The position numbers and the translations under genes were made by a program. Under the pieces are notes generated by a model. It ran no database searches and had not been told where the DNA came from. It saw nothing but the letters and a program-made list of their open reading frames with translations. Positions 1,339-31,966 of a stretch of 64,000 bases of DNA are shown here, one piece after another (within the stretch, counting starts at the first letter, position 1; every line of letters starts with the position of its first letter). Origin of the DNA: Gautieria morchelliformis (taxonomy: Eukaryota; Basidiomycota; Agaricomycetes; Gomphales; Gomphaceae); the NCBI GenBank assembly GCA_015179125.1, contig WHVA01000246.1:1-64000 (forward strand). The letters run 5' to 3'.

Positions 1339-4300
1339 GATCCTTCTACTCCAGAGAGAAATCGTCAGCAGGAGCGTGAAAGGGCGAGGGAGGAGCAGGA
1401 GGGTCGTATGACGTCGCCTACTGATCGGAGAGCGCGTGCCCTTGCTGTGGCTGCTGCCAGAGCTCGGAACCAGCCACCCCCTCCACCACCTCCTTTTGCC
1501 ATCCCTCACCCTCCTCCTAGAAGCAATGTGGCTGATCCTTTTCAACAACCTGCTGCAGAGCCATTACGTCCTCCTGATCCCAGTCCTGGACAGCAGGTGG
1601 CAGCCCTTCGTGCTCAGTTAGCAGCAATCCCAGCAGCACAGCCCTTGAGAAGATACAGGCAGGAGCCGATACAGCCACCTCCTAATCTTCCTGTGGTTGG
1701 TTCTGCAGGAATTGCACAGTTGCGTGCTCAGGCTGCTGAGCCAGCACAGCCCTTGAGAAGATACAGGCAGGAGCCAATACAGCCACCTCCCAATCTTCCT
1801 GTGGTTGGTTCTGCAGGAATTGCACAGTTGCGTGCTCAGGCTGCTGAGCAGTCTGCTATATTGCAGCAATTGGGAAGGGGTAGACAGGCAGCTAATCCTC
1901 CTGTAGTAGGTTCTGCAGGAGTGGCAGCATTGCGTGCTCAGGCCAATGCAATAAGACCAATGCCACCGCTACTCCCTGCGCTTTTGCGGCCTCTTCAGCG
2001 ACTCCCTGCACCTCCTCAGCTGCTCCCTGCACCTCCGCAGCCTCCGCAGCCACTCCCTGAACCTCCTCAGCCACTCCCTGCACCTCCTCAGCCGCTCCCT
2101 GCACCTCCTCAGCCGCTCCCTGCACCTCCTCAGCTGCTCCCTGCACCTCCTCAGCCGCTCCCTGCACCTCCTCAGCCGCTCCCTGTACCTCGGCAGCGTC
2201 CTCAGCGACCTCCTCCTCCTCTTCCACTGGGTCGCTCTAGAATAATTGAGGCAGATGTGCAGCGTCATGATTTGGGTCCCATGGTTATTCCCTGCCCTGA
2301 CTGTGGAGCATTACACTGGAGGGCAGAACGTCTGCAGAAATCCTCAAATGTGCGGCCCAGGTTTGGTGATTGCTGTATGGAAGGAAAGGTGCAGCTGGAA
2401 GACCTGCCAGAGCCCCCTCAGCCATTGAAACAGCTCTTAGAAGGCCAGGACCCTGAGGCAAAAGGATTTCACCAGAATATCAGGCAGTATAATGCTGCGT
2501 TTGCATTCACTTCTGTGGGGGCCGACTTTGACCAAGATTTGCTTCGGGAGGGTCGTGGTCCATATGTGCTCAAGCTACAGGGTGAACTGTATCATCTCCA
2601 TGGCTCTCTCCTCCCTGACAATGAAGACGATCCAAAGTATGCCCAGCTTTACATATATGATCCTGCACTGGCTTTGGCAAAGAGAAAAAATCGTAATGAG
2701 TGTCTGTCTCCAACTATCATGGGAGACTTGCAGGAAATGCTCCTGCTATGCAATCCTCATGTGCGCACATATAAACAAGCAGCTGAGAGGCTCAGAGCTC
2801 AAGAACAGAATGGTGACATCCAGGCAAGGCTCACGTACAGGGCACACAGGGGTCCTAGGAGATATAATGTCCCAACTGCAGATGAGATTGCAGTCGTTCT
2901 TCCTGGAGATGGCATCGACCCTGGACCTAGGGATATTATTGTCCAGCTCAGAGGTGGACCTTTCAGAAGGGTATTGGATACCAATGCAAACTATGCCTCG
3001 CTGCACTATGTCTTGCTCTTTCCCAAGGGAGAGTTGGGATGGGAACCAGGTATTCCTTATCATGAGCCAGAGCGTGCTCGGCAGGCCAATCCCAATCCAA
3101 ACAGACGGACACAGGTCACCCAAATACAGTACCATGCATATCGTCTGTTCCAGAGAGCGAGAGAACCTACAACACTCCTGCGTGGTGGCAAATTGTTCCA
3201 GCAGTACATTGTAGACTCCTGGGCTGCTGCAGAGCAAAGCAGACTGAGGTGGATCAGGGCCAATCAACACACTCTGCGTGCTGAGCAGTATAACCAGATG
3301 GTAGATTCATATGGAGGCTTGGACAATGACATTGGAGATGCAAACAGCTTGGGCATAAAAGTCATTCTGCCTGCGACATTTCAAGGAAGTACACGGGACA
3401 TGAATCAAAACTGCCAGAACTCCCTGGCCATTGCAACAAAGAAGGGTCCCCCTGATTTATTTATTACCATGACTGCCAATCCAAAGTGGGATGAGATAGT
3501 GGCCGAGTTGCTCCCTGGACAAACTGCTCAGGACAGACCTGACCTGGTGTCGTGGGTGTTTCACCTCAAAAAGAAATACCTCATTGACTTGATCGTCAAG
3601 GACAAGATCTTTGGAGAAACCGTCGCTCGCGTTCACACTATTGAATTCCAGAAGAGGGGGCTCCCACACATGCACCTGCTTACCTGGTTCGATAGGGAGT
3701 CCAAGGTCAAACATCCACATGAGGTGGATTCTATGATTTCAGCAGAGTTCCCTGATCCAGAGACACATCCTGTCCTCTACCAGTTGGTCTGTGAGCTGAT
3801 GACACATGGTCCCTGTGGACAAATGAATCCAAATGCACCCTGCATGGAAAATGGCAAGTGCAAGAAAGGCTTCCCAAAGCCATTCTGTGAGGAGACCATT
3901 GTGAATGTAGATGGATATCCAAAATATCGTCGTCGCAATGATGGAAGGCTGCACAATGTCAGAGGTGACATGCTGGACAACAGATGGGTTGTGCCATACT
4001 CACCTCTGCTCTTGCTCAAACTCCGGTGTCACATCAACCTTGAATTCACCTTCAGTGTGAGGTGCGTCAAGTATATCCACAAGTATCTATACAAGGGCCA
4101 CGATCGGACCACGATGGAGTTTGGTGTCGACCACGATGAGATAAAGAAGTACCTGGACGCTCGCTATGTCAGTGCTCATGAGGCCTGTTGGAGGTTGCTG
4201 GAGCGGGAAATCCACACCCAGGTGCCTGCAGTCATGGCACTGCCAGTCCATGAAAAAGACCAGCAATCAGTCATTTTCAATCCTGATGCTGATCCGCTCA

Positions 4301-6417
4301 CCATCATGAACAGGGTGGAGGGGTCAAAGACAGCGCTCATGGCTTACTTTGAGGCCAATGCTGCCTATCCTCATGCACGCGATGTGCTCTATGTGGATTT
4401 TCCTGAGCATTTTACCTGGAAAAAAGAGGAAAGGGTATGGACACCACGTCAAAGGGGATATAGCATTGGACGCCTTCACTTTGCAAGCCCAAAATCAGGA
4501 GAGAGATTTTATTTGCGCACTCTCCTCACGGTGGTCAAGGGCGCCAGATCCTTTGAGGAGCTTAGGACAGTGGATGGCATACAATGTCCTACTTACAAGG
4601 AGGCCTGTCTTGCCAGGGGACTTCTGGAGGATGATCAGGAGTGGAGGTTGTGTCTCCAGGAAGCCAGTGGCATGAAAACAGGTGCTCAGCTCAGACATCT
4701 CTTTGCCACCATCCTTGGTCATTGCATTCCCTCACAACCTGACAGACTATGGGACACCTTCAAGGAGCACATATGTGATGATCTCAGACATCGGCTCCAA
4801 GTCAGACACAATATCCAGGAGCCACGGGATGATCAGGTCTATGATTTTGGCCTCTTTCTCTTGGATAAACTCCTTCAGCGTAATGGAATGTCCTTGAGCA
4901 GCTTTAAAGATATGCCTCGGGTGGTAGGCGAGTGGGAGGTCCTGATTGGAAACAGGTTCATAGCTGAGCAGAGGGACTATGACCCTGTTCAAGAGAGGCA
5001 GATGGCTGATGAGGAGGTTCCCAAGCTGAATGAGGGGCAAAGGTCTGCGCATGATCAGATATTACGGTCGGCACTGGACATAGATGCTCAGGGGAAACCT
5101 AACGGACAAATGTTTTTCGTCACTGGCTCAGGGGGCGCTGGGAAATCATTCACATGGAACACCCTAATCCACTCCTGTAGAGTGGAGAGTCTCATTGTGC
5201 TTGCTGTAGCCTCATCTGCAATGGCTGCACTTATCCTCACTAATGGGACAACCTCTCACAGCATGCTTGGAATTCCAATTCCTGTCCATGAGGGCTCTCT
5301 CTCCTCCATCAAAAAGAACTCTGACCAGGCTGATATGCTGAGACTGGCCAGGCTCATCATTTGGGATGAGGCTGCAATGCAGCATCGCCATGCCATAGAG
5401 GCCATTGACAGGACACTGAGGGATTTCCTTGACCAGCCTGACAGACCCTTTGGTGGCATCACAGTCGCCTTTGGAGGTGACTTTCAGCAGACTCTCCCAA
5501 TCGTCCCTAAAGGCTCCAAGGAGGATATCGTGGGAGCTACCCTTCAGAAGTCATATCTGTGGCCAAAGATCAAGGTCCTCCATCTGACAGAGAACATGCG
5601 GGTGAGAAATGACCCTGACAGAGCGAGGTTTGCAGAATGGCTGCAGAATGTGGGCCAGGGAAAGGATCTCCCACTAGATCATACGTTCTCACTCCCTCCT
5701 CACATGGTGTGTGGCCCTGGAATTGCAGAGCTGATCCAGGAAATATACCCTGGCATTGGCAATGCAATCCCTGCCCAGGACAATTATTTCTTGGAGCGGG
5801 CCATCCTCTGTCCCAGAAATATTGAGGTCAATGAGATCAATTCCATGGTGTTGAGGCAGTTTCCAGGTGATGCTCAGGTCTTCCACTGTGCAGATTCTGT
5901 CAAGGAAACCGACTTTGCAGAGCAGTATCCTGTGGAGTATCTGAATTCCATAGAGATGGGCAGTCTTCCTCCTGCTCACTTGGAAGTCAAGCCTGGAGTG
6001 CCTCTGATGATGTTGCGCAATTTGGATAAGAAGCAAGGACTATGCAATGGGACAAGGTTGCGGTTGGTGAGGATGAGGAATAGAGTGTTGGAGGTCAGGA
6101 TCATCTCAGGTCCACGTGCAGGAAATACTGCTTTCATCCCCAGGATCACCATTTCACCATCAGAGGGGGAATTACCATTTGTGCTGCAGAGGAGACAGTT
6201 TCCAGTGCGTGTGGCATTTGCAATGACCATCAACAAGTCTCAGGGACAGTCTTTGGGTACGGTTGGGCTGGACCTGAGATATCCAGTGTTTGGACATGGT
6301 CAGTTGTATGTTGGTGTTTCAAGGGGAACAAGCTGGAACAAAGTGAAGGTCTTGCTTGAGGAGGGTTTGAACACAACCAACGTTGTATATAAAGATGTAT
6401 TACTTAGAGCTCCTTGA
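1339..6417 (+). CDS. Helitron Rep/helicase (RepHel)
   Basis: Encodes the rolling-circle transposase of the Helitron. From the first in-frame ATG at 1408 it is 1669 aa. Order: a Pro/Gln-rich N-terminus with two copies of a roughly 34-residue repeat and a run of LPAPPQP units; a Cys-rich segment (CPDCGALHW, then CC); the Helitron Rep domain with the HUH motif HTIEFQKRGLPHMH at residues 743-756 and the tyrosine motif YIHKYLYKG at 889-897; then a PIF1-like SF1B helicase with Walker A GSGGAGKS at 1240-1247, Walker B IIWDEA near 1317, GGDFQQTLP, and the terminal INKSQGQS and YVGVSRG motifs. Rep nicks and joins strands and the helicase unwinds. The frame stays open upstream to a good acceptor (TTTCTCAG ending at 1338), giving DPSTPERNRQQERERARE before the ATG, so the true start is probably in an upstream exon that I could not place. 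No stop interrupts the gene. Confidence 0.93.
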   Translation, partial: DPSTPERNRQQERERAREEQEGRMTSPTDRRARALAVAAARARNQPPPPPPPFAIPHPPPRSNVADPFQQPAAEPLRPPDPSPGQQVAALRAQLAAIPAAQPLRRYRQEPIQPPPNLPVVGSAGIAQLRAQAAEPAQPLRRYRQEPIQPPPNLPVVGSAGIAQLRAQAAEQSAILQQLGRGRQAANPPVVGSAGVAALRAQANAIRPMPPLLPALLRPLQRLPAPPQLLPAPPQPPQPLPEPPQPLPAPPQPLPAPPQPLPAPPQLLPAPPQPLPAPPQPLPVPRQRPQRPPPPLPLGRSRIIEADVQRHDLGPMVIPCPDCGALHWRAERLQKSSNVRPRFGDCCMEGKVQLEDLPEPPQPLKQLLEGQDPEAKGFHQNIRQYNAAFAFTSVGADFDQDLLREGRGPYVLKLQGELYHLHGSLLPDNEDDPKYAQLYIYDPALALAKRKNRNECLSPTIMGDLQEMLLLCNPHVRTYKQAAERLRAQEQNGDIQARLTYRAHRGPRRYNVPTADEIAVVLPGDGIDPGPRDIIVQLRGGPFRRVLDTNANYASLHYVLLFPKGELGWEPGIPYHEPERARQANPNPNRRTQVTQIQYHAYRLFQRAREPTTLLRGGKLFQQYIVDSWAAAEQSRLRWIRANQHTLRAEQYNQMVDSYGGLDNDIGDANSLGIKVILPATFQGSTRDMNQNCQNSLAIATKKGPPDLFITMTANPKWDEIVAELLPGQTAQDRPDLVSWVFHLKKKYLIDLIVKDKIFGETVARVHTIEFQKRGLPHMHLLTWFDRESKVKHPHEVDSMISAEFPDPETHPVLYQLVCELMTHGPCGQMNPNAPCMENGKCKKGFPKPFCEETIVNVDGYPKYRRRNDGRLHNVRGDMLDNRWVVPYSPLLLLKLRCHINLEFTFSVRCVKYIHKYLYKGHDRTTMEFGVDHDEIKKYLDARYVSAHEACWRLLEREIHTQVPAVMALPVHEKDQQSVIFNPDADPLTIMNRVEGSKTALMAYFEANAAYPHARDVLYVDFPEHFTWKKEERVWTPRQRGYSIGRLHFASPKSGERFYLRTLLTVVKGARSFEELRTVDGIQCPTYKEACLARGLLEDDQEWRLCLQEASGMKTGAQLRHLFATILGHCIPSQPDRLWDTFKEHICDDLRHRLQVRHNIQEPRDDQVYDFGLFLLDKLLQRNGMSLSSFKDMPRVVGEWEVLIGNRFIAEQRDYDPVQERQMADEEVPKLNEGQRSAHDQILRSALDIDAQGKPNGQMFFVTGSGGAGKSFTWNTLIHSCRVESLIVLAVASSAMAALILTNGTTSHSMLGIPIPVHEGSLSSIKKNSDQADMLRLARLIIWDEAAMQHRHAIEAIDRTLRDFLDQPDRPFGGITVAFGGDFQQTLPIVPKGSKEDIVGATLQKSYLWPKIKVLHLTENMRVRNDPDRARFAEWLQNVGQGKDLPLDHTFSLPPHMVCGPGIAELIQEIYPGIGNAIPAQDNYFLERAILCPRNIEVNEINSMVLRQFPGDAQVFHCADSVKETDFAEQYPVEYLNSIEMGSLPPAHLEVKPGVPLMMLRNLDKKQGLCNGTRLRLVRMRNRVLEVRIISGPRAGNTAFIPRITISPSEGELPFVLQRRQFPVRVAFAMTINKSQGQSLGTVGLDLRYPVFGHGQLYVGVSRGTSWNKVKVLLEEGLNTTNVVYKDVLLRAP

Positions 6418-7373: not shown

Positions 7374-7598
7374 TGTGGGACGAAGGAGATATAAATGATC
7401 TGTTATTCTATCTTGATCTCAAGTAGATCGTTCCTTTATATACAAAATATGATGTCCGTTTGTATTACCAATCTCTTCGAGCTGCTGTGCCGATGCGATG
7501 CCGGTGCACCAGCAACCCGGGGTCGAGAGCGATCTCGAACCTCCGGCTAAATGCGTGCCGGCTCTGCCTCGGCGGTGTCATCGTCCCGATTACTAACA
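7374..7598 (-). repeat. copia LTR (3' LTR of the minus-strand element)
   Basis: 225 bp, same sequence as 11648-11872 as read. On the minus strand it begins TGTTAGTAATCGGGACGATG and ends in CCCACA. The gag-pol frame runs into this LTR. Confidence 0.93.
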
Positions 7599-10500
7599 CT
7601 CCCCTCAGCGAGAAGTCCCTTCGGCAAAATCCTAATTTCCCTAATAGATACCTGTGTTGATATAAATCCAATCCCTTTGTAAATATGTCCGCTATGTTCT
7701 CCTTCGTCGGTACGTACGTAAGTGATGCCTCGTGAGAGGCCACTTTCTCACGGATAAAATGATATGCGACATTGATGTGTTTGGTACGCGCATGATACGT
7801 TGCGTCATGCGATAGTGTAATGGCGCCTAGATTGTCTGATCGAAGTGACGTGGGCTGGGTTTGATCGATTCCAAGTTCCTCGATAAAACGCCTCAGCCAG
7901 ATTAATTGCTTGGCGCCCTCGGTAAGTGCCATGTATTCGGCCTCCGTGGTAGATAGCGCGATCGTTCGCTGCTTCTTCGAGCTCCATGCGATAGCTCCCC
8001 CTCCTAGTATAGCTACATAGCCACTAATAGATAGTGCGTCGTTTCTATTAGCATAATCCGAGTCGACAAATATTTCGAGGTCGAGACCAGCGTCTCGTCG
8101 GAATGTTATGCCGTCGTCACGTGACCCTTTGAGGTACCTGAGCGCGTGTTTGATCGCCGTCCAGTGCTCGGGTCCATAAGTAGTAGTGAATTGGCTCAAG
8201 TGTTGTACGGTAAAAGCCAAATCAGGTCGCGTGCTGAGTGCTGCATACATGAGTGATCCGATCGCTTTAGCATAAGGTACTTCGGCAGTTGGACCTGTTG
8301 AGTCCATGGGTGTCGTGAGTTTGATCATTTTATGCAGAGGTGTAGATACGGAATGTGCTGTTGTCATGTTGAATCGATCGAGTATGATGTCGATGTAATG
8401 CCCTTGTGACATGATCAGTGTTCCCTCATCCCTATTCCTCTCAACTCTAATTCCCAAGATTTTCTTCATTTCTCCTAAATCTGTTAAAGGGAATTTCCCA
8501 TGAAGCTCCCCCTTGAGCTTAATCATCCCTCCTTTGGAGTCAGCAAATAGTCCAAAGTCGTCCACATATACTGATATGACTTCGATTGAATCCTTATCTT
8601 GTCTGATGTAGACACATTCATCGGCTGTACTTTGATGAAAGCCGAGATCGAGTAGTAATTTGCGTAAGCGCTGATGCCAAGCTCGCCCCGATTGCTTGAG
8701 TCCGTAGAGCGCTCTGTATATTCTTAGAGCGCGTCCAGATCCATCATCAAAACCGTCGGGCTGGCGCATGTAGATCTCCTCATCTATGGTTGAATTGAGG
8801 TAGGCGCCTTTGACATCCATCATTTCGATTTCCCAATCGAGTGTGTTTGCGATCGCTAATAGAACACGTAGTGAATCGAATTTGACCACGGGTGAGGTTA
8901 TCTCGTAGTAATCCATCCCTGGCCTCTGTGTGAATCCTTGAGCCACAACCCTTGCTTTAGCCTTATCGAATTGTCCGTCCGGTTGTGTTTTGACAGCGTA
9001 TACCCATCGGCAACCGATAGCTACTCGTCCGGGTGGTAGTTCTGTTAGTTCCCATGTTCCTAATGTCTTGTGTTGATCCATCTCAATTTCCATTGCTTTC
9101 TCCCAGATCGGCGCATCATCACGTGATACCGCCGCTCTGTAATTCTCAGGTTCAGTGACGATTTCTTTCGTTATGTAAACCTGCTCGGTGCGTCCTGAAT
9201 TATTCAGTTTCCGGTAATCCGGCCTTTGAGTGATACGCGCGCTCCGTCGGATCTCTGGAGCTGGCGCTTGTTCAGGTGGATCAGGAACGGGTGTCGTGTG
9301 GGGTGATGACGTCTGTGGGGTAGATGTGATCGGGTCCGGCACATGCTCGCGCGGTGAGTGCTCCCCCTCGAGCGGTGCCGTGTCATCATCGTCGTTGTCT
9401 GGGATAGGGTAGAGTCGGTTGTCATTTTCGTCGAATGTGATATTTCTCGAAATTTGAACATGTTTTGAGGCTTTATTGTAATACCTCCATGCTTTTGCAT
9501 GTTCTGCTACTCCGACGAAGATGTGTTCTTCTGCCTTTGGATCAAGTTTAGCTCGTCGTTGATCCGGCACCATAACCCAACAATTTGTCCCGAATTCCTC
9601 TAGACGTGCTATGTTCGGCTTCTTGCCGAATAGTGCCTGGAACGGCGTTGCGTCATCTCCAAGCGCTCGCGTGGGTGATCGGTTTTTGATGTAACACGCG
9701 TAAGCCACGGCCTCGGGCCAGAGTATTTTAGGCAGGTTCTTGGCAAATATCATTGCCCGTGCGTGCTCGAGTAAGGTTCGGTTGAGTCGTTCGGCGATTC
9801 CATTCTGGGCTGGGGAGTATGGAGCTGTAGTCTCCATGATAATGCCATATTTTGCACAAAATTCCTTGAAATTTTTATTGACATATTCCCCTCCATTATC
9901 CGAGCGAAACCTCTTTAGTTTCTGACCTGTTTGGGTCTCGAGGAATGCCTTGTACGTCTCGAAGTGTTTGAGCGCTTCATCTTTGGCGCTCCCAAAATAG
10001 ATGACCGTGTACCTCGATTTGATGTCCGTGAAAGAATAAAAGTATTTCTCACGCGATGGTCCCTCGGTCTGGGCAGGTCCCCATACATCGGATACTGTCA
10101 GGTCACCGACCTGTTCTACAGTGTCCTCGGCTCTTTTGGGGAACGGCTCCACATGCCGCTTGCCTTGTATGCATGCCTTGCACTGGCTCGGCTCGTTTGA
10201 CTCGTCGATCTCAAGTCCGGTGACTAGATCGTTAGACTTCAACAATTTTATGGAGTTTATATTGACGTGCCCTAGTATCCTGTGCCATTTGTCCCATGAC
10301 CGTCCTTTTGCCGCTGCGGCAAAGTCCCGTGCCTCGACTGATCGAGTGACTCGTGCCTTCATACAGAATAGCCGCCCACGCTTCTGTCCCTGTGCGAAGG
10401 TAACTCCGGCGCGTGATTTGAATTCGACGCCGGTGCCTGAAAATGTGGCCGTGTTGCCCTTATCAGTTAAACGCCCTACGCTGATAAGGTTGTTCGGCGC

Positions 10501-11568
10501 ATCTGGTGCGTGTTTGACGTCACGTAGCTCGATCGTGTTCGTCTTGGCACCGATCTTGAATTCCATGTATATAGTGCCTCGGCCTTGTGTATGTAGTACC
10601 GCACCGGGTGAAATTCCTTCGATTTCAGATGGTTCCTCGGCATAGCTAGCGAAATCGTTTCGGCTTCTAGCTATGTGTGTTGTTGCCGCTGAATCGGCTA
10701 ACCAGTCGGATGCGGATATAGCACTGTATGCTACCTCCTTAGATACAAATGCGAAGTCCTTTTCTTCAGCTTGTTTGACTGTTTCTTTGTTCCCTGTTTT
10801 GAACCATTTCGGTGCTTGGCCCTCCTTGCCGCCACCTTTCGCCCAACAGTCCTTCACGTAATGACCCTTCTTGCCGCAATTTCGGCACTTTCCCTTTGTT
10901 GCTCCTGAGTCATCTTTCCTGGTCCTGTGACGTTGTTGCGCCTTAAGCGCCGTCTGCCGTGCCGATCCAGCTTTCCGTGCTCGATCCTCATCGAGGACCC
11001 GAGCTATTAATATATCAGCTGTTGTCCCGGCTCCACTGGCGTTTACTGCCGTAATAAATGCCGACCAAGAATCTGGTAATGACGTCAGCAACGTGTTCGA
11101 GAACTCGGTGTCACTGATGTAATGCCCCCGCGCATTCAATTCCTGTTGAATGCCGCGGAGCTTGCGTACGTGCTCCTCCATGTTCGCGCCGTCCTCGGCA
11201 AGCGTCCGGAAGAAATCTCTTCGGAGATTTACAATCCCCACTGCTCCCTTAGATTCGAATATTGCTTGTAGACTAGTCCATACAGCAAACGCAGACATCG
11301 TCTGATTGATGTAAACTAGTTGTTCATCGGCAACTCTGAGGCAAATCTCTTTTCTAGCCTTCTTGTCCTTCCTTCTCCAATCGTCGATCTCCTGCTGTTC
11401 GGTCGCAGTGACGTTGTCGGCATCTGCCGGTCTCGGTTCCGTCTCCCTGCCGATAGCCACGTCCCACAGATCTGAGTCATCGAGTATCCACTCGAGCCGC
11501 CGGCGCCACGCCGCGTAATTATCCCCGTTCAAGGGGTCGATCTTGTACGTGTTGTTGCTACTCGACAT
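7465..11568 (-). CDS. copia gag-pol polyprotein
   Basis: One uninterrupted frame of 1367 codons in the usual Ty1/copia order. It has a gag domain, then a CCHC zinc knuckle (CRNCGKKGHYVKDC), an aspartic protease (DWLADSAATTHIA), a GAG-pre-integrase domain (WDKWHRILGHVN), an integrase core (SDVWGPAQTEG, SDNGGEY), a copia-type reverse transcriptase (GCRWVYAVK, YVDDFG) and a C-terminal RNase H (STTEAEYMAL, ending in YLLGKLGF). Integrase before reverse transcriptase separates it from Ty3/gypsy. The last roughly 45 codons lie in the 3' LTR, so the functional polyprotein probably ends shortly after the RNase H. It is framed by identical LTRs and appears whole. Confidence 0.95.
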   Translation of the reverse strand: MSSSNNTYKIDPLNGDNYAAWRRRLEWILDDSDLWDVAIGRETEPRPADADNVTATEQQEIDDWRRKDKKARKEICLRVADEQLVYINQTMSAFAVWTSLQAIFESKGAVGIVNLRRDFFRTLAEDGANMEEHVRKLRGIQQELNARGHYISDTEFSNTLLTSLPDSWSAFITAVNASGAGTTADILIARVLDEDRARKAGSARQTALKAQQRHRTRKDDSGATKGKCRNCGKKGHYVKDCWAKGGGKEGQAPKWFKTGNKETVKQAEEKDFAFVSKEVAYSAISASDWLADSAATTHIARSRNDFASYAEEPSEIEGISPGAVLHTQGRGTIYMEFKIGAKTNTIELRDVKHAPDAPNNLISVGRLTDKGNTATFSGTGVEFKSRAGVTFAQGQKRGRLFCMKARVTRSVEARDFAAAAKGRSWDKWHRILGHVNINSIKLLKSNDLVTGLEIDESNEPSQCKACIQGKRHVEPFPKRAEDTVEQVGDLTVSDVWGPAQTEGPSREKYFYSFTDIKSRYTVIYFGSAKDEALKHFETYKAFLETQTGQKLKRFRSDNGGEYVNKNFKEFCAKYGIIMETTAPYSPAQNGIAERLNRTLLEHARAMIFAKNLPKILWPEAVAYACYIKNRSPTRALGDDATPFQALFGKKPNIARLEEFGTNCWVMVPDQRRAKLDPKAEEHIFVGVAEHAKAWRYYNKASKHVQISRNITFDENDNRLYPIPDNDDDDTAPLEGEHSPREHVPDPITSTPQTSSPHTTPVPDPPEQAPAPEIRRSARITQRPDYRKLNNSGRTEQVYITKEIVTEPENYRAAVSRDDAPIWEKAMEIEMDQHKTLGTWELTELPPGRVAIGCRWVYAVKTQPDGQFDKAKARVVAQGFTQRPGMDYYEITSPVVKFDSLRVLLAIANTLDWEIEMMDVKGAYLNSTIDEEIYMRQPDGFDDGSGRALRIYRALYGLKQSGRAWHQRLRKLLLDLGFHQSTADECVYIRQDKDSIEVISVYVDDFGLFADSKGGMIKLKGELHGKFPLTDLGEMKKILGIRVERNRDEGTLIMSQGHYIDIILDRFNMTTAHSVSTPLHKMIKLTTPMDSTGPTAEVPYAKAIGSLMYAALSTRPDLAFTVQHLSQFTTTYGPEHWTAIKHALRYLKGSRDDGITFRRDAGLDLEIFVDSDYANRNDALSISGYVAILGGGAIAWSSKKQRTIALSTTEAEYMALTEGAKQLIWLRRFIEELGIDQTQPTSLRSDNLGAITLSHDATYHARTKHINVAYHFIREKVASHEASLTYVPTKENIADIFTKGLDLYQHRYLLGKLGFCRRDFSLRGVLVIGTMTPPRQSRHAFSRRFEIALDPGLLVHRHRIGTAARRDW

Positions 11569-12197: not shown

Positions 12198-15100
12198 ATG
12201 AACAACGCTAAGGACAACGCTGAGGGCACTGTGACAGGATCGTAAGTCCACGATCGCTTCTCTAGTGAGCCAACTGTTCAACATTCACTCTCCACCCCGA
12301 AGTATTCCTGCAGGAATCAAAGTTGCTGGAAAGACTCTTTCGTTTGCGGTGCCTATTGCATACTAACTCTTGCCGATCGACAACAGCCCTGAAATGCGAT
12401 CACCTTCCCAATGTCGGACTGTTCAGCAAACGTCCTGGTAAATACTACGTAAAACTCTTTGTCGATAAGGATGTCAAGAAGACTCCGGTATCTGCGAGAG
12501 GCAATACTGTTTCGTGGACTGAGTCGTTCTATTTGTGCGTTTAATTCCAATGTTATTATATTGACGCGACTTAAATCCATGCCCAGCAAGGACTTTCATG
12601 GGTCTTCCGTATTAGGAATTGAAATCTACGGGCACCGTATATTCACACGTGATGACTGCATAGGCGGTGTGAAGGAACGGATTGACTTGCTGCTTGCAGA
12701 AGGAGGAACTGGCGGTCAGTCCTTTTCGCTCATCGACGGAATGCACGCGTGATCATCGACCATAGCAGTCGTTGTTCGCAAACTGCAAAAATCAGATAAG
12801 GCTGGGAAGATGCATGAGGTTCTGACTACCCTAGAGTTCGCCCTCACGTCTTTCGCGACGTCCGACAAGGCGCGGGAGGCGCAGTTGAACGAAGCAGTCA
12901 GCGGAACGAAAGCGGTCGATGAAATGTTCTCTCCACCATCCCTAATTGTTGATGAAGGGGCTGGGGTCGATGTCGCCACTTCCACCATCGACAGTTCGAA
13001 GACGATATCGGCGACTTGGGCTACCCTCATGAACAATATCAGGCTGTATACCGATATTGTGGATAAGGCCTCAGAGGTATGGTTATGTTGGTCGTCTCAC
13101 AGGTCATCTCATTGACATGGTGTCCTTAATTCTAGGTCCATCCTTATGTGAAAATGGCATGGTCCATCCTGTCTCTTGCACATACGGTACGTGTATGACA
13201 CACCAACCGGACAGATATAGCTGACATCCGGGGTCGACTCTATTTAGACGATCATTGCTCAGATGGACCGGGACGATAGCATCCATGGTCTAGCGGAAAT
13301 TATTGGCGATGCCTATGCATTCGTCAGTCTGGCAGAGCCGTTGAAGACCATTGAATCGCATAAGTCAATTATCTTAGCCTTGGAGCAACAGACGTTAGAG
13401 TGCAGCTACTTTGTCCGCGCCTATGCGAAAAACAAGGATTTCTGTATGTTGGACCCCCTGCCACATGGCCACAGCTGATGATCGTTGTTCAGGGCAAAGA
13501 ACGGCGAAACATCTAATGTCGGATGTCGACAGCAAGATCGAACAATACCGGAAAACGTTCATCAATCTCAGGGCAGCGTTACAGGAACATGCCGTCATTA
13601 ATACCGACATCACTGTACTACGTGTTCTGGATGCCGTCGGCGACCTCTGTGAGTTTTCTGACTTTGGGCCTTTCCCGAGCCTCCCGAGCTTAATACACCT
13701 TGCCGCCAACTGGGGCAGTTCTGCTAATTGACATGCCCTACGCAGACGGTGCTAAGTTCAATCCTGAAAAAGGATGTCTTCGGGATACCCGGGAGACAGT
13801 TATTGCGGAGATCTGGGATTGGGTTAACCAGGATAGTGAGGACACGCCACGCATATTTTTGTTGAACGATGTTGCGGGTGCCGGCAAGTCTGCCATTGCC
13901 CACGAGGTCGCTAAACGACTTAGTAGCATCAAACGTCTCGGGTCGTCGTACTTTTTTGACCGCGCTCTTCAGGCACAGCGATCCCCCGCCAATCTCTTTA
14001 GCACGATTGCTCATGATCTTGCCGATCTGGATCAAGAACGAAAAGCATCGTTGCTGAAAGTCGTCGGGGAGCAGAAAGCGCTTCGGACCACACGCGTACC
14101 TCGTGAGCAGTTCCAAAAGTTCATTCTGGATCCCTGCAAGGATCTAACGGTCATTGGACCGAGCGTGATTGTTATTGATGCATTGGATGAGAGCGGAGAC
14201 ATGGAATCTCGCCAGGCTCTCTTGTCTGTCCTTGGCAACGAAGCTGGAGAACTGCCGCCTAACTTCCGCGTTCTCATCACCTCCCGTGCCGAACAAGACA
14301 TCCAGGGCGCTCTTCTGGGGAAGAAGCATGTGCTTTCCAGGTCCCTAAAGGATATGGACCCGAACCCTGCCCATGCCGTCGCCCGCTTTGTGAAAGATGA
14401 ACTAGGTAACATTACGGACCTCGAGCGCAAATGGCCCAACGAGGGCTGGTGTCGATTATTAGTCGAGAAATCTGAAGGTCACTTTCAATGGGCGTCCACG
14501 GCTTGTCGATTTGTCAAAGGAGATGGGAAGGGTGGTCGGGATCCTGTTCAGCAACTGCAGAAACTTTTGGTCAAGAACCTCAGTGGGATGGATAATCTGT
14601 ATCTCAGTATCCTCAAGCAGATATTCGGTGATGGCGATGACTTGACGGATGATGTCAAGCTTCGCTTTCGCTTGGTGATGGGCTGCATCCTGACTGCCAG
14701 AGAACCGCTCTCGATGCCTGCCCTGCAGAAATTGTGCAAGGAAGGCAACTTGGGTACCGAGGTGCAGCGTATCGTTGGACCTATGGGTGCTCTGCTGAGC
14801 CTTCCTTCTCAAGAATCTGGCACAATCAGTCTGCTGCACACCTCTTTTCGTGACTTCTTGACCGATCGCGACCAGAGTGAACCATACGACATCAATATAC
14901 CTATACACCATGACGACCTTGCACTCTCATGCTTGCGTGTGATGATGGAGGAACTTTGTTTTAACATTTGTCGGCTTGAAACTTCACATCTCCTCAATGA
15001 CGATGTCATCGACTTGGCCACACACACCAAGAAATATATATCCCCACAACTTTCCTACTCTTGCCGTTTTTGGGCGGACCATGTTTGTGCCACGACCTTT

Positions 15101-17594
15101 ATGCCAGGTATAGGTGCAAAGGTCAAGGAGTTTTTCGAGACTAAGCTACTCTACTGGCTAGAAGTGTTGAGTTTAATCAAGAAGGTATTCGATGCATCAG
15201 CAATGCTCTCGTCAATAATGGACTGGAGTCTGGTGAGTGCCCAAGTTGTTATGCGCTCCAATGGGAGTCTAATGAACACCAGGATAATGACATTACAGCC
15301 TTCGCAATGGATACGCGCAATTTTGTACGTGTGTTTGGGAGTGTAATCTCTCAGAGTGCTCCCCATCTCTATTTGTCGGCACTCCCGTTTGCACCCGAAA
15401 GGTCGAAAATATGTGAGACTTACCTCCCACGATTTCCACGACTACTCCGCATTGAGACCGGGAAAGCGACGACGTGGTTACCTATTCAAACCGTTCTCGT
15501 AGGCCACACCGACAGGGTGAACTCGGTGGCGTTCTCGCAGGACGGCAAGCGCATCACCTCTGGGTCTGATGACAAGATGATCCGTGTATGGAATGCAGAC
15601 ACCGGAGAGGTCATTTCAGCACCATTCAAAGGCCACACCGACAGTGTCATGTCAGTGGCGTTCTCGCATGACGGCAAGCACATCGTCTCCGGGTCTTATG
15701 ATAAGACAATCCGTGTGTGGAATGCAGACACCGGGGAACTCATTTCAGCACCATTCAAAGGTCACACCAAGGTAGTCACGTCGGTGGCATTCTCGCATGA
15801 CGGCAAGCGCATTGTCTCCGGGTCTGGTGACAACACGATCCGTGTATGGAATGCAGACACCGGGGAGGTCATTTCAGCACCATTCGAAGGCCACACCTGC
15901 CAGGTCACGTCGGTGGCATTCTCGCACGATGGCATGCGCATTGTCTCTGGATCTTTCGACAACACGATCCATGTGTGGAATGCAGACACCGGGGCGGTTA
16001 TTTCAGCACCATTCAAAGGCCACACAGACTGGATCACGTCGGTGGCGTTCTCGCATGATAGCAAGCGCATTGTTTCCGGGTCTGGTGACAAGACGATCCG
16101 TGTATGGAATGCAGACACCGGGGAGGCCGTTTCAGCACCATTCGAAGGCCACACCCACTGGGTCACGTCGGTGGCATTCTCACATGATAGCAAACGCATC
16201 GTCTCTGGGTCTGGTGACAACACGATCCGTGTGCGGAATGCAGGCACGGGGGAGGCCATTTCAGCACCATTCGAAGGCCACACCCACTGGGTCAGGTCTG
16301 TGGCATTCTCGCACGACGGCAAGCGCATTGTCTCAGGGTCTTTCGACCACACCATCCGTGTGTGGAATGCAGACACCAGGGAGGACATTTCAGCACCATT
16401 CGAAGGCCACACCGACTGGGTCATGTCAGTGGCATTCTCGCATAATGGCAAGCGCATCCTCTCCGGGTCTAATGACAAGACAATCCGTGTGTGGAATGCA
16501 GACACCGGGGAGCTCATTTCAGCACCATTCAAAGGCCACAACAAGGTGGTCACGTCGATGGCGTTCTCGCATGATGGCAAGCGCATCGTTTACGGGTCCG
16601 GTGACAACATGATCCATGTGTGGAACGCAGACACCAGGGAGGACATTTCAGCACCATTTGGAGGCCACACCGACTTGGTCACGTCGGTGGCATTCTCGCA
16701 TGATGGCAAGCGCATTGTTTCCGGGTCTGGTGACAACACGATCTGTGTATGGAATGCAGACACCGGGGAGGCCATTTCAGCACTATTAGAAGGCCACACC
16801 GAATGGGTCGCGTCGGTGGCATTCTCGCATGATGGCAAGCGCATTGTCTCCGGGTCTGGTGACAACACGATTCGTGTATGGAATGCAGACCCCGGGGAGG
16901 TCATTTCAGCACCATTCGAAGGCCACACCCACACAGTCATGTCTGTGGCGTTCTCGCAGGACACCAGGCGCATCGTCTCTGGCTCCTATGACAAGACGAT
17001 CCAAGTGTGGAATGCAGATACCGGGGAGGCCATTTTAGCACCATTTGAAGGCCACACTGGGTGGGTCAGCTCGGTGGCGTTCTCACAGGACGGCAAGTGC
17101 ATCGTCTCCGGGTCTTATGACGACACAATCCGTGTGTGGAATGCAGACACCGGGGAGGTCATTTCAGCACCATTCGTTGGCCACACCGACTGTGTCACAT
17201 CGGTGGCGTTCTCGCACGACGGCAAGCGCATTGTCTCTGGGTCTCGTGACAAGACGATCCGTGTGTGGAATGCGGACACCAGGGAGGCCAATTCAGGACC
17301 ATTTGCAGGTCAAGTACCTAGTCAGTAGCTGTTACGTTGATTTGTTGGAACATGGGAAAATCTGCTAATATCCTTTGCACAGCTACAGGGGCTGGGTTTC
17401 GACATGACTCACAGCTTGAAAATGGCTGGTTACTCAACTCGCCCTCAGAACATTTATTCTGGGTTCCACCCTGGTCTCAGGTAGGTTTGTGGTGGCCAAT
17501 GAATACCACTGTCATTGCGAAGGGGTTCACAAAGCTTGATCTCAGCCGGTTTGAGTATGGGACTTCATGGACACAATGCAGAGGGGCTGCATAA
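12198..17594 (+). CDS. NACHT-WD40 (NLR-like) protein with 14 WD40 repeats
   Basis: A putative STAND NTPase of the fungal self/non-self recognition type. My model has 11 exons: 12198-12241, 12314-12348, 12387-12534, 12587-12714, 12769-13076, 13136-13186, 13248-13443, 13493-13648, 13719-15232, 15283-17308, 17383-17594. It gives 1605 aa with every junction in frame. Domains in order: a C2-like N-terminus (DHLPNVGLFSKRPGKYYVKL, VLGIEIYGHR), a helical region, NACHT with Walker A AGAGKS at residues 408-413 and Walker B-like IDALDES near 508-514, a winged-helix-like part, 14 WD40 repeats at 934-1535, and a conserved tail (LFWVPP, LWWP, YGTSWTQC). Introns have GT-AG ends and many have CTAAT branch sites. 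Weak points are the first two exons (one intron would be only 38 nt) and intron 8, which has a second acceptor at 13745. The gene is probably intact and cytosolic. The NTPase would oligomerise when the propellers sense a ligand; that role is inferred from the family. Confidence 0.85.
15502..17307 (+). repeat. 14 tandem 129-bp WD40 units in exact register
   Basis: GGCCACACC-type starts recur every 129 bp from 15502 to 17179 with no insertion or deletion, encoding 14 units of 43 residues (two seven-bladed propellers' worth). The units are near-identical at DNA level. Counting the G of GH as 1, the changes concentrate at residues 4, 5, 7, 23 and 25: for example 5 is R,S,V,Q,W,W,W,W,V,L,W,T,W,C and 23 is D,Y,G,F,G,G,F,N,G,G,G,Y,Y,R. 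High identity with focused variation is the pattern of concerted evolution plus selection known from the Podospora HNWD (het-d/het-e) family. Confidence 0.9.
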
Positions 17595-18099: not shown

Positions 18100-18690
18100 A
18101 TATGAAAGAGGGAGAAGATGGGAAAGGGGGTCAGTGTCAGGGGAACCCCTCCAGAGGCTATTTTAAGCTTGGCTTCGGTTCCAACCCAAGGTCCGCATCT
18201 GACCCAAGCACAAAGCTGAGTTTCCAAGCCTTCACCTTCAGCTACAATCCCAGAATGGTGGCAGGGGCATATGCAGGGTCATGTATGTCAGGCGGTGGCC
18301 ATGAGACTCAGACTTACATCAGGAGTGGAGCAGGCATCCCTGACTTCAATCAGGGGCACAAGGTATATGGGTAGCATGCTGGCAGTGTGGATCCATTCAA
18401 AATCCTGACTATGGCATATGACCTCACCAACAACAATCACTTGGAATTTATCAGTCAATGGGTTAAGAGGCCTATTCATGAAATTATTGAAGAACTCCAG
18501 GAGTATGTTTCCAAGGACTGGAATGGAGTCACTACAGTTCTTTGACAACTCTTTGAGCACAATGGAAAAGAGGTTCAGAGAAAAGGATCTTCAGAAGCTT
18601 ACCTCCAAGTTCCAAGAAGGCCACACTTGAGATCTGTATGATTTCCATTGCTACCAGAGGAAGTTCACTCGCATTGGAGTGTGGTTGTGC
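18100..18690 (+). mobile_element. Ty3/gypsy-like gag fossil, left part
   Basis: Short coding-like stretches (for example HLEFISQWVKRPIHEI and FHCYQRKFTRIG) resemble the capsid region of fungal Ty3/gypsy gag proteins. The element is broken and old. A younger gypsy element lies to its right, and more of the same kind of sequence appears from 21650, so this looks like an older element split by a later insertion. Confidence 0.4.
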
Positions 18691-21605
18691 CAGACTAGAG
18701 TGTCAGCGCGTGCTTTGCTGAACACATCTGCAAATTCGTGATATACTTCGGGAACATGTTCCTTAACGTTCTCAGGAAGCTCGGAAGAGCTTCCTCCCGA
18801 TGTTGCCCCTCTGGCGAGGAGCTTAGGCGAAGCCAAATTGAGCTGAAACACTTCGGACCCTTCCAATCTAGATGCGCGCATGAAAGCGGGTGCATTGATC
18901 AGGGAAACGAGGGGTGCTTGCAACTTCGGAAGCGAGGTCGGAGGCGGGGGCGAAGATGCCGTAGGCGAGGTCGAAGTCGTAGCCGAAGCTGAGCGGGCTG
19001 ACGTCGCCGGGGTCGCTGGAGTCGTTGTTAGGTCGATGGTCTTGAAAGTAATACTGCCCAATACCCAGTCAATCGACGGATTGTAGCGGGTGAGCCAGTT
19101 GTGGCCAAGTACCATCGAGCAACTTGAGTCGAGCGAGGTTACGTAGAAGGTAACCCATTGTTGTTCGCCGGTCGGAAAGCAAATGCAGAGGTCTAGAGCT
19201 TGGGTAATGGTAGTGTTAGTACTACCGTCAAATAGTTTCAAGGGTATAGGAGAGACAGGATAAGCAGGCATGGAGTACTTCTGGACAAATCTGGATTCAA
19301 TAAAACAGTCTGAGGACCCGCAGTCAACTAATGCAACAAAAGCGACGTTGGGAAGCGAAGGCGAGGTTAGATCTACATTAAGGGAATCTTTGGACAATGA
19401 ATGAGAAGCGGCGCTGAGTCTGAGCACACGGGTGAGGTTACCGCAATCCTCGGATCGTGTGGTTCCGAGGTTGCTACCTATTTTTTCACCTCCGTAATGG
19501 AGGCCGAAGTCCCCTCGTTAGGGGTCTTCGTTGCCCGACCTTTAGAACCGCTACTATTGGTAGACTTGTTCTTCGGGCAGTCCTTGACGACGTGACCTTT
19601 GGTGCCGCAAAGCAGACAAAGGCCTTGGTCGACCCGACGTTGGCGCTCCTCGGGAAGCAGTTTGCCATCCTTCCCGAGTTTGCTCGAAATGTCGGGCTGG
19701 CTCTTGTTGTTCGAAGAGTTGTTGTTGTTGGAACCCTTGCCGCTGTTGTTAGTCTTGTTGCGGTTCTTATTGTTATTGGAACCACTGGAAGACTGGTGGT
19801 TGTTAGTGGCATTGTTACTGGACTGATTAGTGGTGCGTGCAGGCTGGGAGCTACGACCATTGATCATGGCGTCGTATTCCTTTCGCTCCCAGTAACGGCT
19901 ATCGCATTCCAGCGCGAAGTTCCTAAGCTCGGCGAGGCTGCGGAATCGAGGGAAGTGAAGTAAGTCGTCCTTGATCCGTTTGGCCAGGCCCTTGTAGGCA
20001 AAGTGTCGGAGGGCCGCGTCGTTCCACTGAGTCCGAGTCGAAGCTCGGGCGAAGTCGATAAAGAATCGCGCGGCCTTGTGGTGCTCTTTCATAACGATCT
20101 TCTCGAGGTCAATCTCGGCTTGGGCCGCGTTGTCGTATGGGCCGAAGTTAAGCTCGAGCTCGGCCTTGAAGCTGTCCCAGTCCTCGAGCCAATCTGGCTC
20201 GGGTTGGACTTCGCCGAGGATCGCCGGCTCGAAATATTGCAGAGCCGAGCCGGACAGGTAAGAAATAGCATACTGCACCTTTGAGGCCCCAGTCTTGAAC
20301 GCGGTGGGGCGATCTCTGAAGTTGAGTACACATTGAAGGAAGAAAGTGCGAAGCTTGGCTTGGTCAGTACCGTCATAACTATCCGGTTCCTTGACCTTGG
20401 CTCGTGCTTCGGATTCGCGAGGTTTCGCGAGTTTGATGAACACTCGACGCATAAGCTCGTTGTCCTCGAGGTCACCGAGGTCCTCGGGCGGAAGGTTGGG
20501 GAGGTCCCGATCGTTGTCAGAACTTCTAGAGCCATCACCTGGATCACCTGAAGGGTCACCGAGGTTAGCCCTACCTTTGCCTTTGTTACTAGGCTCGGCG
20601 GGGTCTGCGAGGGGTATCCCCGGGGACGGGGGTGAGTCATCGGGGGCTTCCGAGAAACGTCGCTGTTCTGAGATACCCCGAAGGGTGCGAGAACGAGTTA
20701 TCATGGACATCGTGAAAAAAGGGATACGTAGGGTGTAAGGAGTCTGAAAATACTGTTACGATACGATCCGTCGTAAGGTTGGCCGAGGTCGGGAACGAAA
20801 CCCGAGGCAAGGTCCGAGGTTACGGGGCGAGGTTTGGATGGGGAAGTCGGAGAGGGACTTGGCTTCAGCTTATGTGCTGCGCCGACCCTACGCACGAGTC
20901 CCAATTTCGGAGGTAAACGAATAAGAGGCGAGGTTCTGGCTTAAGAGGCGAGGCGTAGAAACTAGCTAGGGATCGAAGGGACACGATAGTTGATTTTCAG
21001 ACTGAGGAGTAGGAATGCATACAAGGGGGTTATATACGGACGAGGTGCAAGTCAGGGGCGAACGGATTAGTGGAGGTCAGGGCGAGGTCAGGAGACCGAG
21101 GTCAGGGCGAGGTAATATACGAATGATGCGTGATGGAGCGGAATCAGTAACTAAGGGGATACGGGCATGGGATCAAGGTCGGATATGAGTTCAAGCTCGG
21201 GATCGGGCTCGGGCACGGATAAGTATCATATGTACTCGGGCATGAATATCACAAGGCTCGGGCTCGGAAGAAGGTTCTACCGGTAAGTAGCCGGCCAAAG
21301 GCCGGGTCCTTACAACTACTAAGCGTGTTCCGAAGAAAGTGGAAGTTGGATATGACATACGGGGTAAGTAACTAACCAAGAACAAAGAACTACAAGGGGG
21401 GTGCAGGGTAGTAGAGTCAAGAACAATGGGCAAAAGAACAAGGGGGCGGTAAGCATACTTGACATGATGGAACAACGGGACTCCAGAGGGGATGGATATG
21501 TGGTGTTGCTGTGCTGTGAGTCGAATCCGGTGGGTCCGAGTAATAGAGTTGAAAGGGGAAAGGATATAACAAGGGGCAGGGTTGTCTGAATTATTGGAAT
21601 GTTAT
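18690..21605 (-). mobile_element. Ty3/gypsy element with gag and protease, broken
   Basis: Read on the minus strand. First an LTR-like region (about 21605-20754), then gag (start 20710) with a capsid domain and a zinc knuckle CLLCGTKGHVVKDC, then a retropepsin-type aspartic protease (VDCGSSDCFIES, and SMVLGHNWLTRYNPSIDWVLG) and the very start of the polymerase region. Most of pol is not present, so the element is a broken fossil. The long remaining frames suggest moderate age. It appears to lie inside an older gypsy gag fossil. Confidence 0.8.
20754..21605 (-). repeat. LTR-like region of the gypsy element (approximate ends)
   Basis: Starts at TGTTACG (20754). It shares motifs such as TCCGGTGGGTCCGAGTAAT and AGAACAAGGGG with the better-defined LTR copies at 26470-27129 and 54377-54740, but is diverged. 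The outer end is approximate. Confidence 0.5.
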
Positions 21606-27430: not shown

Positions 27431-28027
27431 GATGAAAAGGGAACCGAGGAGGTGCCTGAAGTGCCAGAGGCAAAACGCGAGGCACATGGCGGCGGACTGC
27501 AATGGCGAGGAGACTTGTGGGACATGTGGGAAGGGACACAGGACGGCGGACTGTGAGGAAACCGACCCAGCCCGCTACAAATGTGTAAACTGTGACAAGG
27601 CCGGTCACACATTGTGGGACCACACTTGCCCAAAATTCACAGCAGCATGTCAAACGATAGAGAAGGCGGATCCAGAGGGGACCTACAAATATTTCCCCAA
27701 TCAGCAGCCATGGACGTGGGAACAACAAAACGAAACAGGACCGACCGCAGACGCAGGCGAACTTCTCTAACAAACCATCGACAGGGGAGACAGAGAGAGA
27801 CACATGCAATGGTCAATGGGCAGTAATGGCGGTGGCAGGAGGGAAGGCAGCAGGACGAGGGGAGCAGGGCACAGAAGCAGGAGCAGGAACAGCACCAACC
27901 CCGAGGCGGGGCACAGGGACCAAGGGTGGACGGCAGGAAGGGCGAGGCAGAGAACGCTCGACGAGTACGAACGGGGTGGCGCCCAGCAGGAGGAAATCGA
28001 CAGTGCAAACCACACCTCACATCAGCA

Positions 28028-31000: not shown

Positions 31001-31966
31001 GCGGAGATAAGACGCGAAACAGCACAAATACAGGTTTTCTGCGACGGGTCGTGCATAGACGGCGGTGTAGGAGCAGCGGCAGTCTTGTACAGAGACGGGA
31101 GGGAGGAGTCGACAGTGCAGCTCCATCTGGGAGCGGAAACGGAGCATACCGTATTCGAAGCCGAACTAGTGGGAGAAGCGATGGGAGCGAAGTTACTGAA
31201 TGCAGAGCGCAGCGGAAGATACGTGATAGGGTTGGATAGTCAGGCGGCCATACTGACGACCAGAAGAGAAAAGCAGATTCCAGCGCAATACCTGGTCAAT
31301 GCCATACATGGACAGCTCGAGAATGTCACAAGAGCACAACCGAATGCAACAGTAGTAATGAGATGGACGCCGGGACACAAGGGAGTCAAGGGGAATGAAA
31401 GGGCAGACGAAGAGGCCAAGAAGGCGGCGAGGGGGGAGAGCAGCGAAGAGAGGTTCATCCCAATGGAATTTCAGGGCATACTACCGAGAAGTAAGGCAGT
31501 CGAGCTCCAGAGACACAAGAAGGAACTCAGAGCAATAGCCAAAGAAACGTTTGCAAGATCGCCGAGATCCGAATACCTGCACAGAATAGACAGGACAATG
31601 CCATCCCCAGCATATGCCAGGTTGACCGAAGGCATGGCCCGTAGACAAGCAGCGATCCTCATACAAATCAGAATGGGCCACATAGCACTCAACAAGCATC
31701 TGTACAAAATAGGGAAGGCCGACTCACCTACCTGTGCAGCGTGCAAAAGAGCGGACGAAATGGTCCATCACTTCTTATACAGGTGTCCCGCATACAAGAA
31801 ACAGCGCAGGGAACTAGAGCGGACACTACGAAGAGCCACCAGCACAGTCAGCACTCTGCTAGCCAAGCCAAAAGCAATGAAGGCTCTATTCAAGTACATC
31901 AGCGCCACTAGGATGTTCGAGGGAATATACGGGAATCTGGAGATGGGGGAAAAAGGGAGAAAATAG
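28028..31966 (+). pseudogene. LINE ORF2: endonuclease, reverse transcriptase, RNase H
   Basis: The LINE enzyme that nicks the target and copies RNA into it. It starts at ATG 28028, which overlaps the ORF1 stop as ATGA. Domains in order: APE-type endonuclease (QQNANKS, IQEPYIDFLG, WLGDFNRHHPQWD); reverse transcriptase (KAPGANGIP, YRPIALLDTIGKV, LFLDIKGAFPS, GMDQGCPLS, catalytic FVDD); RNase H with its acidic residues (FCDGS, FEAEL, LDSQ, NERADEEAK); and a C-terminal CCHC motif (CAACKRADEMVHHFLYRC). RNase H plus this knuckle fits the Tad/I group. One in-frame TGA at 28661-28663 interrupts the frame just after the endonuclease; the sister LINE has Arg there, so CGA to TGA is likely. Otherwise 1312 codons stay open. 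Confidence 0.92.

Follow-up and report, generated by a model that had tools for sequence, protein, structure and literature searches.

In fungal NOD-like receptors (NLRs), the NACHT domain and WD repeats are common parts, and C2 is described as an N-terminal domain of NLRs in a few basidiomycota (Dyrka et al. 2014, PMC4986451). In Podospora anserina, het-d, het-e and het-r and the other HNWD/NWD genes join NACHT to similar WD40 units with hypervariable codons, and in these genes repeat exchange, changes of array length and a double-propeller structure have been described or proposed (PMC1805685, PMC2873952, PMC12222747). In this paper we analyse a stretch of 64,000 nucleotides of contig WHVA01000246.1 of Gautieria morchelliformis (the window) and, in it, an apparently intact C2-NACHT-WD40 NLR on the forward strand at 12198-17594 (the focal gene), whose array of 14 WD40 repeats belongs to a large family of related arrays in the same genome.

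With the basidiomycete C2-NLRs the focal gene has in common an N-terminal C2, NACHT and WD repeats (PMC4986451), and with the Podospora genes it shares NACHT, similar WD40 units and hypervariable codons at equivalent positions. It differs from the Podospora HNWD genes in unit length, 43 amino acids as against 42, and in having 14 similar repeats where those genes usually have 11 and three cryptic ones. A STAND ATPase (signal transduction ATPase with numerous domains) that carries 14 similar WD40 blades is also known: WRAP, the product of Npun_R6612 of Nostoc punctiforme (PMC6805158, PMC9218822), which has been solved as two 7-bladed propellers (2YMU; PMC6805158). The blades of WRAP, however, are almost identical and lack synonymous change, whereas the units of the focal gene have a greater age and diverge chiefly at positions of the putative binding face. 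A WD40 protein of Gymnopus androsaceus has 15 similar blades with a median identity of 83%, in predicted propellers of 7 and 8 (PMC9218822).

Concerted evolution of WD40 units is already in print (PMC1805685, PMC2873952, PMC4986451, PMC12222747, PMC9218822, PMC6805158), as are diversified top-face residues (PMC1805685), a sharp fall in repeat number above 14 in fungal NLRs (PMC4986451) and peaks at 7 and 14 blades among pooled WD40 proteins, where amplification is held to proceed without a counting system and new propellers are expected to converge on a preferred number (PMC9218822). Since C2-NLRs, variable codons, the drop beyond 14 repeats and double propellers have all been described, the focal gene is a further case of a known type. 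What this genome adds is internal evidence that the content of an array turns over at fixed array length; a limited literature search met no comparable within-genome analysis. The explanation that we consider probable is an NLR with two propellers in which exchange of repeats diversifies the recognition face while array length is constrained. The genome offers a large within-genome test of how blade number can be kept while content turns over, and from near-identical pairs of loci whose arrays have been rewritten one can measure how fast rewriting proceeds and how strongly number is selected.

Methods

The 122-Mb genome was searched with parts of the focal gene, and 150 of 216 candidate matches were listed for the linker ahead of the array, 86 of 409 for the NACHT exon and 150 of 207 for the C-terminal tail (the best 150 for linker and tail). 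Loci were anchored on the 150 linker matches and on 19 of the 86 NACHT matches, picked by eye. Two further NACHT matches without a linker match, on contigs C933 and C927, were left out of the anchors, and the count of 128 loci given below is unaffected by them because neither contig has a tail match among those listed. Repeat number was taken from the distance between anchor and tail, which agrees with the count from sequence in all 34 loci that have both. Loci L001-L008 entered the first pattern scan only, and L073 entered none of the comparisons.

Unit positions are counted from GH, and pooled variability values exclude two loci whose arrays are shorter than five units. Sites were tested with our own script for a fixed-effects codon test of the FEL (fixed effects likelihood) type, with a FastTree tree and an MG94-type model. 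Of 464 units found, 14 were dropped for a stop or a score not over 60, leaving 450 units, 425 of them unique, from 35 loci. The NACHT tree comprised 28 loci, L011, L020, L025 and L067 having been excluded by the test for a complete NACHT match. The AlphaFold2 (AF2) input was an alignment of the array, without the linker, with nine bacterial loci, picked by match length from the 16 found; L061, of similar length and 21% identity, and six other bacterial loci were left out.

Results and Discussion

The array of the focal gene

Tandem Repeats Finder (TRF) reports a single array in the NLR (15497-17303, period 129, 14.0 copies, 0% indels), and in-register translation places the start of repeat k at 15502+129(k-1), giving 14 units to 17307 without a stop or frameshift. 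The 129-bp register described in an initial annotation of this DNA is therefore exact and lies in one open exon. The same annotation called the repeats near-identical and the array highly homogenised, and both expressions are too strong. Pairwise identity of the repeats averages 0.836 in DNA (range 0.767-0.922) and 0.765 in protein, and the gene ranks 12th among 20 loci compared. The published mark for highly conserved repeats is more than 85% over at least 100 amino acids (PMC4986451); our mean of 76.5% lies below it, although the two measures differ and some subset of the units may reach the mark. Over 21 loci, the nearest relative lies in the same gene for 119.3 of 248 units, against a random expectation of 5.4%, and mean unit identity is 0.846 within genes and 0.830 between them. 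In the focal gene, however, the closest relative is a unit of the same array in only 3 cases out of 14 and lies in another locus in 11, so homogenisation within this gene is weak. Its units belong to a pool shared by the whole family.

Duplication of a seven-unit propeller within the focal gene is ruled out, identity being flat by lag (0.825-0.852; 0.838 at lag 7). Elsewhere in the family, the 21-unit array of L015 (contig C517) has a lag-7 identity of 0.936, a block of seven units being seemingly duplicated, and two spacings of 124 bp in it suggest frameshifts; the lag-7 signal is absent from three further 21-unit arrays (L009, L029 and L030; five such arrays in all).

Array length across the family

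At least 169 loci in the genome, the focal gene included, carry the linker or NACHT part, some with stops or as fragments; 128 of these could be paired with a tail match on the same strand and 41 could not. Array lengths in the 128 loci, with numbers of loci in brackets, are 1 (1), 2 (2), 3 (1), 4 (1), 5 (5), 6 (12), 7 (6), 8 (5), 9 (2), 10 (3), 11 (3), 12 (5), 13 (6), 14 (48), 15 (9), 16 (7), 17 (4), 18 (1), 21 (5), 28 (1) and 29 (1). The peak at 14, with 48 loci against 6 at 13 and 9 at 15, is also seen among loci in register (47 of 121), and neighbouring lengths would predict about 7 loci there; a Poisson figure for the peak overstates its significance because the loci are related.

Turnover of repeat order

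If 14 were merely inherited, repeat k should resemble repeat k across genes. Among the 55 pairs of eleven 14-repeat genes such index homology survives correction in one only, a tandem pair on contig C263. In this pair, whose NACHT parts are 98.5% identical, both arrays have 14 units and repeats 1-4 are 100% identical, and at each index from repeat 5 onward the two genes have different variable residues. The focal gene and its nearest relative on the NACHT tree, L033 (NACHT 91.2% identical in DNA), both have 14 units and share no common order (p 0.29). Between contigs C450 and C683, NACHT is 100%, 4 kb upstream 99.7% and 3 kb downstream 99.3% identical, and the arrays, of 14 and 12 repeats, have two unit sequences exactly in common while the rest differ. 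These two loci may be two nuclear haplotypes or a recent duplication; a distant probe for the pair landed in a multicopy element. Paralogues with shuffled repeats, for which the initial annotation had proposed a search, thus exist in this genome. In a further pair, C1037 and C350 (NACHT 99.2%), one array has 7 repeats, of which two or more are degraded, and the other has 14, the second of them interrupted by a stop.

Fourteen could instead be the ancestral number, with out-of-register gene conversion rewriting the units while their count stays unchanged, and selection on length would then not be required. Conversion leaves number untouched and would wipe out the homology of repeat order. Beyond the near-identical pairs, 12 pairs of units in different loci have at most two differences, some of them across branches of the NACHT tree, as with repeat 2 of L028 and repeat 12 of L039, which differ at 2 of 129 bases (none of the 12 involves the focal gene). 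Number, however, changes often, from 1 to 29 over the 128 loci. Two copies that have the same NACHT sequence differ in it, with 14 and 12, and it is 21 in L015, with its high identity at lag 7, and on the NACHT tree 14-repeat genes are scattered among genes of other lengths. We therefore regard an inherited 14 as unlikely.

Similar repeats are hard to assemble, and the repeat counts or the differing pairs might be artefacts of assembly. One case invites this suspicion: two loci on contigs C316 and C859 (L034/L035, with L040-L043) are identical upstream and in NACHT, have 6 against 16 repeats, and are unrelated downstream, near a contig end. The contig may be chimaeric, or ectopic exchange may have taken place within the array, and because a chimaeric join is possible the pair was left out as evidence of turnover. 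On the whole an artefact is very improbable, since the 260534 bases of loci read contain no N, the repeats of the focal gene differ from one another by 8-23%, and arrays of up to 29 units are resolved.

Variable positions

The initial annotation singled out residues 4, 5, 7, 23 and 25 of the unit as differing from repeat to repeat, and over 19 genes (the focal gene and 18 paralogues) precisely these are the five most variable, in the order 23, 5, 4, 7, 25. Non-synonymous change (pN) in the focal gene is 0.462 at the five positions and 0.082 at the others, so that variation is not evenly spread over the codons; over the 19 genes the values are 0.479 and 0.093. In the focal gene alone positions 37 (0.435) and 43 (0.355), neither of them named in the annotation, are comparable to 7 (0.421) and 25 (0.301). 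Positions 6, 22 and 24, beside the variable codons, are nearly fixed.

Among the 425 unique repeats the non-synonymous rate exceeds the synonymous one (beta>alpha) at positions 23 (p 1.3e-28), 25 (3.2e-4), 43 (6.0e-4), 4 (3.2e-3) and 7 (5.5e-3), and 23, 25 and 43 pass correction for 43 tests. Of the five positions of the annotation, which had pointed to diversifying selection at such sites in HNWD proteins, 4, 7, 23 and 25 accordingly show a family-wide excess, nominal at 4 and 7, and position 5 shows none; the focal gene taken alone, with too few units to give the test power, shows no significant excess at any position.

In the Podospora NWD/HNWD repeats the strongly variable codons 7, 9, 25 and 27 flank the conserved codons 8 and 26 (PMC1805685, PMC2873952). 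By our own mapping, with a shift of two, these would correspond to 5, 7, 23 and 25 here, and V6 and D24 would be the counterparts of the conserved pair; of these paired positions 23 and 25 pass correction in the 35 loci, 7 is nominal only and 5 is not significant. The AF2 model described below places 4 and 5 ahead of the first strand (6-11), 7 as the second residue of that strand, and 23 and 25 in the turn that links the second strand (17-22) to the third (27-31). In WD40 propellers, loops holding positions like these make up the top face.

The five positions might, on the other hand, simply be unconstrained loop residues that vary under relaxed constraint and not under diversifying selection. 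The excess at position 5 is not significant (p 0.47, 35 loci), synonymous change at the five codons is also somewhat raised (0.302 against 0.206 over the 19 genes), and trees built from recombining repeats inflate site tests. Against relaxed constraint, the excess at 23 and 25 survives correction, the neighbours 6, 22 and 24 are nearly fixed, and equivalent positions were found independently in Podospora; we think it an improbable account.

Structure of the array

The AF2 model of the array has a mean pLDDT (predicted local distance difference test) of 88.4 and a pTM (predicted template modelling score) of 0.58, and every one of the 14 repeats forms three strands in it; a run on linker and array as a single sequence was rejected, with a pLDDT of only 49.2. 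The first Foldseek match is 2ymu (query TM-score 0.56) and the second Apaf-1 (3sfz), and the highest query-normalised TM-score among the 50 matches listed, 0.69, belongs to 1nr0, which consists of two 7-bladed propellers. Apaf-1 joins an NTPase to two WD40 propellers, as the focal gene would. It differs in its CARD effector and its divergent blades. Folding of the array as two propellers, which the annotation had suggested as seven plus seven repeats, is plausible from these predicted similarities and is the arrangement that we favour. The split of the blades may be 7+7 or 8+6, or repeat 1 may close the second ring, and the linker may supply the closing strand.

Among the bacterial matches, L048 (Rhodococcus tibetensis) and L051 (a Mycobacterium sp. 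metagenome-assembled genome) have WD40 arrays 46% and 49% identical to that of the focal gene over the aligned part; these actinobacterial proteins have starts that we take to be TIR-like.

Proposed mechanism

In the mechanism that we propose, the array would form two WD40 propellers of about seven blades each, and the variable residues would lie on the top face, in its d-a and b-c loops, and bind ligand. The many loci would undergo unequal exchange and conversion, both internally and with one another, so that the unit found at a given place in an array keeps changing, and purifying selection would remove arrays unable to close two propellers. Binding of ligand would lead to oligomerisation of NACHT, by which the N-terminal C2 domains would be brought to the membrane and there set off a defence or cell-death response. 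From its family, the focal gene has a putative role in allorecognition or immunity.

Several results weigh against parts of this account. A general enrichment of multiples of 7 was rejected (12 of the 80 loci other than those with 14 repeats, p 0.48), and six repeats are commoner than seven (12 loci against 6), forming a smaller second mode. Index homology at p<0.05 is found in 8 of the 55 pairs, where about 3 are expected by chance, so some old repeat order may survive, and in the pair C164/C232 (6 and 6 repeats) the array is almost unchanged, at 99.7% identity. Among the sites, position 5 shows no significant excess, positions 4 and 7 fail correction, and the 14 units of the focal gene alone show no site with significant positive selection; recombination of repeats violates the single-tree assumption of the test, and some of its 35 loci form near-identical pairs. 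The AF2 model shows the fourth strand of each blade only as isolated bridges, and confidence dips at residues 342-349, at the border of repeats 8 and 9 and not of 7 and 8; with the pTM of 0.58, this means that the blade partition is not fixed by the model.

A broader proposal, which we put forward tentatively and at somewhat less than even odds, is that the NLR-type loci, at least 169 of them, constitute one exchangeable WD40 library in which order is rewritten, even where NACHT is identical and the flanks nearly so, while selection holds the commonest length at 14, enough for two closed propellers. This would be a germ-line combinatorial recognition system, its receptor frame fixed and its face variable, and would be legible from a single assembly.

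Gene model and surroundings

From 12387 on the focal gene is stop-free over nine exons with eight GT-AG introns of 49-74 bp, and its stop codon ends at 17594 (Table 1). Most of eight paralogues compared, out of nine aligned, keep the ATG at 12198 and the donor at 12242. On the spliced protein Pfam finds C2 with an E-value of 2.9e-8 (34.3 bits, cut-off 22), the match being weak when exons are scanned singly (E 0.046 and 0.18). NPHP3_N is found at E 6.2e-24, and the NACHT model matches at E 1.1e-4 with 22.6 bits, under its cut-off of 26.7; a sequence search of the PDB with the NACHT exon gave one chance-level match only. The focal gene thus has the NTPase followed by superstructure-forming repeats by which fungal NLRs of the STAND class are recognised (NPHP3_N and 14 WD40), and, in its spliced protein, the N-terminal C2 of basidiomycete C2-NLRs. 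The description of a large intact NLR in the initial annotation, with its limits, agrees with this model. Its likening of the gene to HNWD proteins does not: these carry a HET domain, of which none was found in the focal protein among Pfam matches up to E 1, and with C2 in its place the gene is not an HNWD.

No allele of the focal gene in the same assembly was found among the matches listed, where the best NACHT after its own has 88% protein identity and the best N-terminal region 87% DNA identity. Positions 12200-13700 are 78-88% identical in DNA to the other loci listed (best 40 of 332 candidates, window included).

The family may evolve by birth and death, and the gene, in DNA rich in transposons, might be one of its silent or decaying members and have no present function. 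It sits between copia-like and gag-like open reading frames (ORFs), and stops, frameshifts or short arrays occur in several paralogues; the focal gene itself, however, is open over its nine exons, with canonical introns and intact NTPase motifs, and we judge decay to be quite unlikely.

Table 1. Features of the focal gene and of the remainder of the window.
Feature	Position	Strand	Evidence or remark
First exon(s) of the focal gene	12198..12386	+	ATG 12198, conserved donor GTAAGT 12242; several open splicings to 12387
C2 domain	12387..12714 (exons 12387-12534, 12587-12714)	+	Pfam C2
Pre-NACHT region without known domain	12766..13648 (exons 12766-13076, 13136-13186, 13248-13443, 13493-13648)	+	GT-AG introns, open frame
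NPHP3_N/NACHT-type NTPase exon	13719..15232	+	VAGAGKSA and VIVIDALDES, taken to be P-loop and Walker B-like
Intron, 50 bp	15233..15282	+	GTGAGT...CAG
Conserved linker ahead of array	15283..15501	+	Genome-wide marker; best 150 of 216 candidates, window included
Array exon (linker and 14 repeats)	15283..17308	+	Open frame, GT-AG flanks
14 WD40 repeats, each exactly 129 bp	15502..17307	+	TRF, in-register translation, 14 Pfam WD40 stretches, AF2
Intron, 74 bp	17309..17382	+	GTCAAG...CAG
Conserved C-terminal tail exon with stop	17383..17594	+	Best 150 of 207 candidates, window included
1669-aa open ORF, Helitron-like N-terminal and PIF1 helicase domains	1408-6417	+	Pfam
1367-aa open ORF, about 630 bp upstream of the focal gene	7465-11568	-	ORF
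Gag-like ORF (Retrotrans_gag, zinc knuckle) and adjoining 258-aa ORF, downstream of the focal gene	18651-20710	-	Pfam
Endonuclease, reverse transcriptase and RNase H ORFs and copia-type gag ORF	27926-31966, 36305-38212, 52014-54005, 55561-57108	+, -, +, +	
Minisatellite, about 85 copies of a 14-bp unit (28-bp higher unit), long ORFs across	44206-45401		
474-aa ORF without Pfam match, ahead of reverse transcriptase ORFs	49744-51168	+	

The ORF immediately upstream of the focal gene is, by its motifs, presumably a copia-like polyprotein, and the endonuclease, reverse transcriptase and RNase H ORFs are taken here to be of the LINE (long interspersed nuclear element) type; with these and the gag ORFs, the window is rich in retroelements. 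Several dozen loci related to the 474-aa ORF are listed in the genome, with 68-98% DNA identity (best 40 of 245 candidates), and this ORF is perhaps a LINE ORF1.

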